From Phreatobacter aquaticus (GTDB lineage Bacteria > Pseudomonadota > Alphaproteobacteria > Rhizobiales > Phreatobacteraceae), in the NCBI RefSeq assembly GCF_005160265.1, contig NZ_CP039865.1, forward strand, positions 3,496,828 to 3,560,827: a stretch of 64,000 bases of DNA, given 5' to 3'. The notes beneath the pieces were generated by a model. It ran no database searches. It was not told where the DNA came from and was given only the letters and a program-made list of their open reading frames with translations. Positions 4,092 through 11,375 of this stretch are shown here, one piece after another (the first letter of the stretch is position 1; each line of letters starts with the position of its first letter). The position numbers were made by a program, and so were the translations under genes.

Positions 4092-4246
4092 CCGGCCTAT
4101 TATATGTACCTCCCGTATATCTCTATTATTAGGGGACATAGGGGACAGAGTATAAGAATATGAGTTATGGTTTTGATTATACTGGACAATTCCCGTCTCT
4201 TTTTCGGTCCCATGAGAGATCTGGTGACAGGGACCGTGGGACATAA

Positions 4247-4305
4247 TTACACGCTGTCCGTGACGTCGTGTCGGAATTTACACGCTGTCCGTGACGTCGT
4301 GTCGG
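4247..4305. repeat. Two tandem 28-bp direct repeats (31-bp period)
   Basis: The same 28 bases occur at 4247-4274 and 4278-4305, separated by AAT. Each unit begins with TTACACGCTGTCC, a degenerate form of the operator palindrome, and contains a second related stretch, TGACGTCGTGTCG (4261-4273, 4292-4304). The result is four similar sites in 59 bases, an iteron-like cluster. Confidence 0.7.
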
Positions 4306-7606: not shown

Positions 7607-8554
7607 TCAAGCCGCTATCGACGCGCGCGGATCAAACCGGCTGAGATCTCGGCCCATCAGGTGAGCGAGGAAGCCCCCGGCGCCCGTCTCCAGCTGGGCC
7701 TCGATGGCGTTGAACTCGTCCAGCGTGCGCCCGAACCGGCCCGCCGTGATGGGCACTAGCTCAGGCCAATCCGGGGTAGCCCCCGGCGCGGCGGAGAGCA
7801 TGAAGCGCTGGTAGTTGATCTGAGGCCGGTAATCCCGCTGCGGCCGCACGGCCTCGCCTGCCAGCAACCGCCGAAGCTTCGCCAGTCGCGGCTTGGTGCC
7901 GGTGTCGAGAGCTAGCGTCGCGTGACCGATCAGCAGGTCGCGCGACGGGATAGGACCGCCATAGAGGATCGGATCGACGTTGTAGCTGTGCGAACCGGCA
8001 AGGCGACGGATGATCCGGGCCAAGAGCAAGGGCACGTCGCTGTCGCCGGTTTCAAGCACCAGTGCCGTACCGGGCCGCTCCGCCGGGCGTTGCACCATCT
8101 GAGCCAGCCAATCGAGCACATAGGCGGTCTGGGCTTCTGATCCGCTGGCAATCCGGTCGCGGATAAAGCGCTCGATCAGTGACCAATCGGCCCGACCATC
8201 CGGCGCCACGGCCCAGCCGCTCCAGCTGTTCCAGAAGAGCCCCTGATCGCCAGGTGCGAGATCCGGGGTGAACAGGACACCCGCCGGGAAGATCCTCTTG
8301 CCGGGCCACGCCTGCCACAGAGCCCTGATTTCCGCTTTGCAGGTGAAGCCGTCGCCGATGACGTCGATCGTCTTCGCGCCGGGGCCGATGGTCAGAAAGT
8401 CCCGAACAGACCACAGGCTGTAGGGCAGGCCGTGCCGGGTCCGCAGGATCTGGAGGCCGCGCGACGTGAAGGCGAAGGCATGCTCCAGCCCGAAGGCCTG
8501 CAGGTGCGGGATGACATGGGGGTTGCGGTCCCAGAAATGGGGGTCGATCTGCAT
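7607..8554 (-). CDS. D5-like helicase homologue with destroyed ATPase motifs (pseudo-helicase)
   Basis: A 315-residue protein that aligns by eye with the ATPase half of the primase-helicase encoded at 4419-6950. Shared blocks are W-x-GWAV (residues 111-116), Y/W-V/I-x-DWLA-x-x-x-Q-x-P, the ALVL strand, and GGFLAHLMGRDLSRF near the C-terminus. At the Walker A position it reads ETGDSDVP (168-175): the Lys is Val174 and the Thr is Pro175. The second Walker B acid is lost (ALDTG), and GERRW is replaced by a segment reading AGRFGRT. No primase domain is present. The start at 8554 follows AAGGAA; the frame is open to 8653. It probably acts structurally, for example as a helicase partner or inhibitor; that is inference. 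Confidence 0.7.
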   Translation of the reverse strand: MQIDPHFWDRNPHVIPHLQAFGLEHAFAFTSRGLQILRTRHGLPYSLWSVRDFLTIGPGAKTIDVIGDGFTCKAEIRALWQAWPGKRIFPAGVLFTPDLAPGDQGLFWNSWSGWAVAPDGRADWSLIERFIRDRIASGSEAQTAYVLDWLAQMVQRPAERPGTALVLETGDSDVPLLLARIIRRLAGSHSYNVDPILYGGPIPSRDLLIGHATLALDTGTKPRLAKLRRLLAGEAVRPQRDYRPQINYQRFMLSAAPGATPDWPELVPITAGRFGRTLDEFNAIEAQLETGAGGFLAHLMGRDLSRFDPRASIAA

Positions 8555-9288: not shown

Positions 9289-9651
9289 CTAGAGGCCGCG
9301 CACCGTGATGTTCCAAGCGGCGCCGGGGTCGCCCTCAATCGCCGCGATAACAAGGTCGCTCGACGTCTCAAGAATGAAGCCGTGCGTGCCGGGGTCGCTG
9401 GCGGGGCTGATTTCCAACCTGACCTTGCCGGGTTGGGGCTGAGGTTCGGCCCGGCGCGCGGCCTCTTCTTCGGCCCGCTCGTGCCGTTCGATGATCTCGC
9501 GAAGCTCATCGTGGTGCTTGCGAAGGGCGTCCAAAGGCAACGCCGCAGCGAAGGCCTGCACAGCGCTCGTGAGCGCCCGGCCTGCCGGGCTATCGGCGAG
9601 GCGCCGCGCCGCGTCGTGGTCGAGGTCTAGGCCGTCAATCTGCAGGGTCAT
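9289..9651 (-). CDS. Unrecognised 120-residue protein, translationally coupled
   Basis: The ATG at 9651 overlaps the stop of the upstream gene (ATGA), with GGAGCC in front. The first 70 residues are helical, with a charged coiled-coil-like stretch (residues 43-67: DELREIIERHERAEEEAARRAE). The last 50 residues are predicted strands, ending in NITVRGL. It is part of the leftward operon headed by the AlpA-like gene. No family is recognised. Confidence 0.6.
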   Translation of the reverse strand: MTLQIDGLDLDHDAARRLADSPAGRALTSAVQAFAAALPLDALRKHHDELREIIERHERAEEEAARRAEPQPQPGKVRLEISPASDPGTHGFILETSSDLVIAAIEGDPGAAWNITVRGL

Positions 9652-10040
9652 GACAGGCTCCGTCGATCGCGCGGCGCCTGAGCGTTGACGGCTTCGGCGA
9701 TTTCGAGGGCGCGGCGGCTGCCGGGCTCGTTGACCTCAGCCGAGGCTTCCGACCAAAGCTCAGTCGAGAGGCCGGACATGGCGGCACCGAGGAGCGCCTT
9801 GGACAGGGTCGCCAATGCCTCTTCGTTCGCCTCGGCACCCGCCATGAGACGGAGTTGAGCCCCGACAAATAGGGAGATACCGAACAGTTCGTCTTCGATC
9901 ACCTCTTGCAGGCGTTCGGTCGCCCCATGAAGGGCAAGGGTCGTGGCCGGGGTGATGAGGTAACGGACGCCAGCGGGGAGGCTTGCGGCGAGCGCGGCCT
10001 CGGCAGCGGGGATCAGGGCCGTCTGTTTGCGCTTGCTCAT
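9648..10040 (-). CDS. Unrecognised 130-residue helical protein, translationally coupled
   Basis: The ATG at 10040 overlaps the stop of the AlpA-like gene (ATGA) and is preceded by GGGAGCGG. The protein is Ala/Leu/Glu-rich and predicted almost all helical, with a basic start (MSKRKQT) and a polar, Arg-rich end (APRDRRSLS). No motif or membrane segment is apparent. The tight overlaps on both sides suggest co-production with its neighbours. Confidence 0.6.
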   Translation of the reverse strand: MSKRKQTALIPAAEAALAASLPAGVRYLITPATTLALHGATERLQEVIEDELFGISLFVGAQLRLMAGAEANEEALATLSKALLGAAMSGLSTELWSEASAEVNEPGSRRALEIAEAVNAQAPRDRRSLS

Positions 10041-10255
10041 GCTGCCGCTCCCGTGCGCGGGGTATATGCCGGGAGGTTTTCGCAGAACCTGTGGATCTCG
10101 CTCACCCGGACGAATGCCCGGCCACCCATCTTGACGGCCTTCAGCTGACCTGAGTTCAGCAAATCATAGAATTTGCCACGCGAAACATGCAAAGCTTCCA
10201 TCGCTTTGCCAGCGGGAAGAAGAGGAGATTCGATTTCCTTAACGACTGTAGGCAA
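10037..10255 (-). CDS. AlpA-like / excisionase-type helix-turn-helix DNA-binding protein
   Basis: A 72-residue protein with a MerR-type winged helix as found in AlpA and excisionase-family regulators: LPAGKAMEALHVSRGKFYDLL (about 13-33) is the HTH, then the wing GQLKAVKMGGRAFVRVSEIHRF. The start is TTG at 10255 with GGAG nine bases upstream. AlpA proteins switch on integrase or replication genes of P4-like elements and PICIs. It is first in the operon ending with the primase-helicase and lies directly below the promoter-palindrome at 10338-10357, so it is the leading candidate to bind that palindrome. Confidence 0.8.
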   Translation of the reverse strand: MPTVVKEIESPLLPAGKAMEALHVSRGKFYDLLNSGQLKAVKMGGRAFVRVSEIHRFCENLPAYTPRTGAAA

Positions 10256-11216: not shown

Positions 11217-11301
11217 TTGGTCCCCAGTGCATAAGGAAGGACACAAGGGGGTCGGCGAAGGTCGAGAAACTCAGCGTTTTCAATGGGTTGGGGGAAGGAA
11301 G

Positions 11302-11375
11302 TGGAGGCCTCGCCCGGAATCGAACCGGGGTGCAAGGATTTGCAGTCCTCTGCGTAACCACTCCGCCACGAGGCC
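11302..11375 (-). tRNA. tRNA-Cys (anticodon GCA)
   Basis: The minus strand reads a complete cloverleaf of 74 bases including an encoded CCA. The acceptor stem is GGCCTCG/CGAGGCC, the anticodon loop contains GCA, the T-arm is CCCGG-TTCGATT-CCGGG, and the discriminator base is U, as required for cysteine tRNA. Its 3' end faces the phage-like element and is the likely attachment site. Confidence 0.97.

Follow-up and report, generated by a model that had tools for sequence, protein, structure and literature searches.

The window that we analysed, a 64,000-nucleotide stretch of Phreatobacter aquaticus (contig NZ_CP039865.1, positions 3,496,828 to 3,560,827), contains a run of replication genes that belongs to a ~24-kb, virus-derived element integrated in a tRNA-Cys gene and extending from about -12677 to 11315 in window coordinates. 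One att copy coincides with the 3' end of the tRNA gene (Table 1), and the second lies ~24 kb leftward, outside the window (at about 7151 of locus L034), where it adjoins a tyrosine integrase gene. Four congeners have the empty site, in which no more than a few hundred bases separate the left flank from tRNA-Cys, and the gene that is the subject of this study, P0001, is absent from the congeners. The element encodes TerS, TerL (622 aa), a lambda-type portal, a tape measure protein, a tail chaperone and a head-decoration protein; no major capsid protein is recognisable among its genes, and it may therefore be defective or a satellite. Since the phage genes around P0001 look incomplete, the element may also be decaying. 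The same element is found in IMG/VR as a 21.65-kb viral contig. The order of its head genes is unusual, with decoration and neck genes upstream of the terminase, and a PBECR3-type nuclease-like protein (Pfam E=2e-8; L034:10241-10654) is encoded near the integrase end.

P0001 lies on the same strand as the primase-helicase P0002 and two genes upstream of it. The gaps around P0001 and onward to P0002 measure 27-95 nt, and the two genes are probably co-transcribed. A left-handed beta-helix protein parts the dead from the live helicase within this run. The 201-aa protein directly upstream of P0001 has no relatives in phages or congeners, its single match being a weak and partial one to a viral contig.

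Table 1. Features of the replication gene run and of the element end in the window
Feature	Position	Strand	Basis
Probable replication origin, directly 3' of P0002	3990..4360		AT-rich dip + motif cluster
28-bp direct repeat, copy 1, iteron-like	4247..4274	+	
28-bp direct repeat, copy 2	4278..4305	+	
P0002, live-looking primase-helicase, 843 aa	4419..6950	-	motifs, DUF5906 E=2.7e-21
Hexapeptide-repeat (left-handed beta-helix) protein, between P0001 and P0002	7046..7579	-	short gaps
P0001, putatively motor-dead DUF5906/NrS-1-like SF3 helicase homologue, predicted Head + pseudo-AAA+, 315 aa	7607..8554	-	
P0001 nucleotide-binding core, residues 169-285, worst family fit of 49 sequences, codon periodicity kept	7700..8050	-	
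P0001 degenerate Walker A, residues 169-175, TGDSDVP replacing G..G.GK	8030..8050	-	alignments
Protein of 201 aa, no family, directly upstream of P0001	8590..9195	-	
Small protein, no family given, upstream in gene run	9289..9651	-	
Small protein, no family given, upstream in gene run	9648..10040	-	
HTH_17 / excisionase-like DNA-binding protein, head of gene run	10037..10255	-	
att repeat GTGGAGGCCTCGCCC, 15 bp, 3' end of tRNA-Cys (tRNA 11302-11375, minus)	11301..11315		

The reading frame of P0001 is intact, running from an ATG at 8554 to a stop codon at 7607-7609, with a Shine-Dalgarno-like AAGGA directly 5' of the start. In good agreement with an initial, sequence-only reading of this DNA, P0001 aligns beyond chance with the helicase half of P0002 (BLASTP E=1e-13, 25% identity over 230 aa). 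P0002 is also its sole other match in its own genome (tblastn E=5.2e-12), and the two proteins are the only family members found in this genome. Homology to DUF5906 / PHROG 1156 relatives spans residues 14-312 and includes the family-typical residues W80, P97, N109, W111, G113, A151, Q155 and P157; the P0001 frame matches the family profile with E=1.6e-38. Searches of Pfam, including DUF5906, gave no match to P0001, and a PDB sequence search with P0001 alone returned chance matches only.

The AlphaFold2 model of P0001 has a pLDDT of 88.3 and a pTM of 0.87, values to be read with the input in mind: an alignment of 78 relatives, all active, which can impose their fold. By a wide margin, the best structural match to the model is the C-terminal region of the NrS-1 phage primase-polymerase (6k9c, Z 22.0, 277 residues, rmsd 3.5), followed by SaPI5 PriRep1 (7om0, Z 16.7), ASFV PrimPol and poxvirus D5/E5. 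The predicted structure thus has the SF3/D5-like fold that had been proposed for this protein. When the model is superposed, residues 11-315 correspond to NrS-1 303-607 and end short of the Tail. The published limits of the NrS-1 domains are 304-391 for the Head, 404-593 for the helicase domain and 619-718 for the Tail, and hexameric rings are formed by the Head and by the helicase domain (PMC7102993). It follows from this correspondence that P0001 is, as modelled, a Head + AAA+ protein with both ends at domain borders, having neither primase domain nor Tail; the absence of the primase domain had been noticed earlier, and the protein indeed begins at the Head. Taken together, sequence homology and the predicted Head + AAA+ fold place P0001 evolutionarily among the NrS-1-like / DUF5906 SF3 helicases.

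While the family fold is predicted to persist, all five motor elements are lost: the Walker A Lys, the Walker B acidic residues, the sensor-1 Asn, the arginine fingers and the DNA-hairpin Lys. Two gapped alignments, made separately, both place Pro175 opposite the Walker A Lys and Leu176 opposite the Thr. The sequence-only reading had described these changes as Lys to Val and Thr to Pro, which reflects an ungapped comparison; its conclusion that Walker A is lost stands, because P0001 has no Lys anywhere between residues 87 and 220. This Lys is kept by every relative that was aligned over the site, a set of more than 120 sequences drawn from phages, a plasmid, GTDB genomes and IMG/VR; P0001 alone lacks it. 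At the Walker B site P0001 reads LLIGHATLA, as compared to LLIQGEEAF in P0002, and the arginine finger pair R/R is replaced by W263/P264, so that the reported disappearance of the Walker B Glu and of the arginine fingers is borne out by the alignments. The sensor-1 Asn column is deleted, and Asp241 takes the place of the DNA-binding hairpin Lys (NrS-1 Lys525), which grips DNA in NrS-1 (PMC7102993). Judging from these residues, the best explanation is that P0001 would no longer be able to bind or hydrolyse ATP or to pull DNA. The earlier description of a dead catalytic core therefore holds and was, if anything, somewhat understated. It had overlooked the loss of the hairpin Lys, the missing Tail and the distance of P0001 from its neighbour.

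This set of losses separates P0001 from the known proteins that it otherwise resembles. The NrS-1 primase-polymerase (PDB 6k9c, 6k9e, 6lrb; PMC7102993) shares Head and SF3 AAA+ domains with the P0001 model, but works as an active hexameric helicase equipped with a PrimPol domain, a Tail, Walker A Lys453, hairpin Lys525 and Arg555/556, none of which occurs in P0001. The DUF5906 / PHROG 1156 primase-helicases are homologous to P0001, and all those spanning the site keep G.GK, unlike P0001. SaPI5 PriRep1 (PDB 7om0, 7ola) and SCCmec Cch2 (PMC7581432) belong to the same fold class as the P0001 model; they are single active helicases, and no dead paralogue is described in the text consulted.

A recent duplication of P0002 can be discarded as the source of P0001, given that the two are 25-28% identical and that a sample of 397 genomes from the order yields about a dozen other primase-helicases with a better score to P0001 than that of P0002. 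The original idea of a copy derived from the neighbouring enzyme is thus not supported. The best matches to P0001 are helicases of Hansschlegelia and Methylopila, with 30-33% identity, and ~42% in residues 80-168. That P0001 is closer to the helicases of other elements than to P0002, and that dozens of known phages carry this helicase family, would suit a protein directed outward, which would enter the rings that competing phages or helpers form and block their replication (superinfection interference) while sparing the divergent P0002. In a tree built on the conserved parts, however, the position of P0001 is weakly supported and both P0001 and P0002 sit on long branches, and the higher similarity to other helicases may just reflect the long P0002 branch; we regard an outward poison as rather improbable.

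Searches through 12 congeneric genomes, some 400 of the order and some 385 of the class, and through IMG/VR and GTDB, which were samples or pattern scans rather than exhaustive, found no orthologue of P0001; none with intact Walker motifs, which would make the losses a local mutation, was thus encountered either. Two family members at one locus were not seen at any other locus examined. The survey also met damaged members of the helicase family. Genome G146, which belongs to the order, carries a 102-aa remnant that does not extend to the Walker A site (L158:6582-6887), a true fragment unlike P0001. In Roseovarius confluentis a stop codon breaks the family gene into two open frames (L164:4411-7134), and in genome G177 part of the core of a family gene lies in another frame (L010/L125); sequencing error or decay may account for these two cases.

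With a single example at hand, purifying selection on P0001 could not be measured directly, and we assessed possible decay from the gene itself. Family fit was scored by segment against 48 non-redundant relatives. It is ordinary in residues 126-168 and 286-312 (ranks 11/48 and 20/48), at the low edge in residues 1-125 (ranks 0-3 of 48, z -1.8 to -2.5) and far below every relative in residues 169-285 (z -5.7 to -7.7). Across residues 169-315, GC content by codon position remains strongly periodic (0.70/0.52/0.82). In neutral simulations, about 0.57 substitutions per site were needed to turn an intact core into one with a P0001-like score, by which point a run contains, on average, two to three stops (only 3-12% of the runs being stop-free) and codon-position GC has flattened to about 0.62/0.54/0.69. 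Neutral decay is accordingly disfavoured by the simulation together with the regional conservation. A local frameshift yielding a garbage core can be set aside as well: the family profile is matched by the annotated frame only, so a frameshift does not explain the divergence. None of the marks of a pseudogene that we looked for (stops, frameshifts, a lost codon signal) was found in P0001, which, on these sequence features, does not look like simple decay.

These results bear on whether P0001 is a relic, that is, the leftover of a second, horizontally acquired primase-helicase that has been truncated at both ends and has no function today. The singleton status of P0001, its missing primase and Tail domains, the seeming lack of a recognisable major capsid protein in the element and the true fragment in G146 are all consistent with such an origin. 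Nevertheless, the gene has an open frame, a codon periodicity that persists through the dead core, and conserved flanking segments, and the protein ends at domain borders, has a Shine-Dalgarno-like start and sits in a tightly packed run of genes; we therefore consider the relic unlikely. The earlier suggestion that the element keeps P0001 as a structural partner gains indirect support from codon periodicity and regional conservation, while its stronger form, a 'conserved pseudo-enzyme', is a label that cannot be claimed because P0001 is one example. The roles first suggested for such a partner, in a mixed hexamer, as a loader or as a self-inhibitor of replication, are plausible conjectures.

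P0002 looks like a live enzyme, with all the motor motifs present (Walker A GTGKT, Walker B QGEEAFW, TTN and ERRW); its structure prediction, made from a 9-sequence alignment, is of low confidence and allows no conclusion on its primase domain. Within the region directly 3' of P0002, GC content falls to 37% (4100-4199), and this dip is flanked by TGTCCC/GGGACA motifs, which occur six times as compared to 0.12 expected, the densest spot in the window. The two 28-bp repeats are perfect and occur nowhere else in the genome. Going by these features, the region is a probable origin. In SaPI and SCC elements, too, the origin iterons directly follow the helicase gene on its downstream side (PMC7581432); the region 3' of P0002 is similar to a SaPI-like replication module in combining iterons with an AT-rich region, a likeness of layout only and not of element homology.

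We tentatively propose that the element maintains P0001 as a pseudo-helicase, one that tunes replication by joining or capping rings of P0002. Its homology, the fold model, the segment fits, the codon signal, the gene run and the adjoining probable origin speak for this proposal, and its singleton status, the 25% identity, the bias of the model, the weak fit of residues 1-125, the incomplete phage genes and the absence of a Tail speak against it. P0001 would be a two-domain ring protein, related to the NrS-1-like SF3 primase-helicases, that retains their ring-forming Head, or collar, and a folded shell of their AAA+ domain, and has shed the parts for binding ATP, for completing hydrolysis in the neighbouring subunit and for pulling DNA. 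Most simply, it would enter or cap the Head/AAA+ ring of P0002 as a non-hydrolysing subunit or template, and in doing so damp or time initiation, or tune copy number, at the adjacent probable origin. In this scheme we infer that P0001 is expressed, that it contacts P0002 and whether its effect is positive or negative. Inhibition would be more likely than activation, because a subunit with neither Walker A nor arginine finger would disable two ATP sites of the ring. That the two proteins would assemble together at 25% identity is a guess.

P0001 might also function without any contact with P0002, forming its own Head/AAA+ ring or remaining a monomer and acting as a scaffold or loader on DNA or protein. 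Its predicted fold is self-contained, with two domains, and the beta-helix protein and the 201-aa protein, both encoded on the same strand, are examples of conceivable partners; nevertheless, the hairpin Lys that would serve DNA binding is lost (Asp241) and the analysis revealed no partner, which makes an independent structural protein quite unlikely in our view.

Cells rely on dead paralogues of AAA+ ring subunits for important regulation, as in clamp loaders and MCM-type rings. To our knowledge, no pseudo-SF3-helicase of the P0001 kind has been described: our search for literature on dead SF3 paralogues gave no relevant match, and the literature searched contains no account of a dead ring-subunit paralogue among SF3 primase-helicases of mobile elements. 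Vaccinia virus offers a precedent in logic: its pseudokinase B12 represses the replication of viral DNA, and the live paralogue, the B1 kinase, counters B12 (PMC6395007); with kinases being unrelated proteins, the comparison with P0001 and P0002 is an analogy only. A more general formulation, which we consider somewhat doubtful, would be that a phage replicative helicase has become, in the service of a mobile element, a motor-dead ring subunit acting as a dominant-negative brake; its target would be the element's own primase-helicase, for copy control, or else the helicases of rival phages, for interference. If P0001 does enter P0002 rings, then the enzyme, its dead partner and the probable origin, all located within about 5 kb, would constitute a compact and genetically simple system for studying heteromeric SF3 rings, copy control and phage interference.
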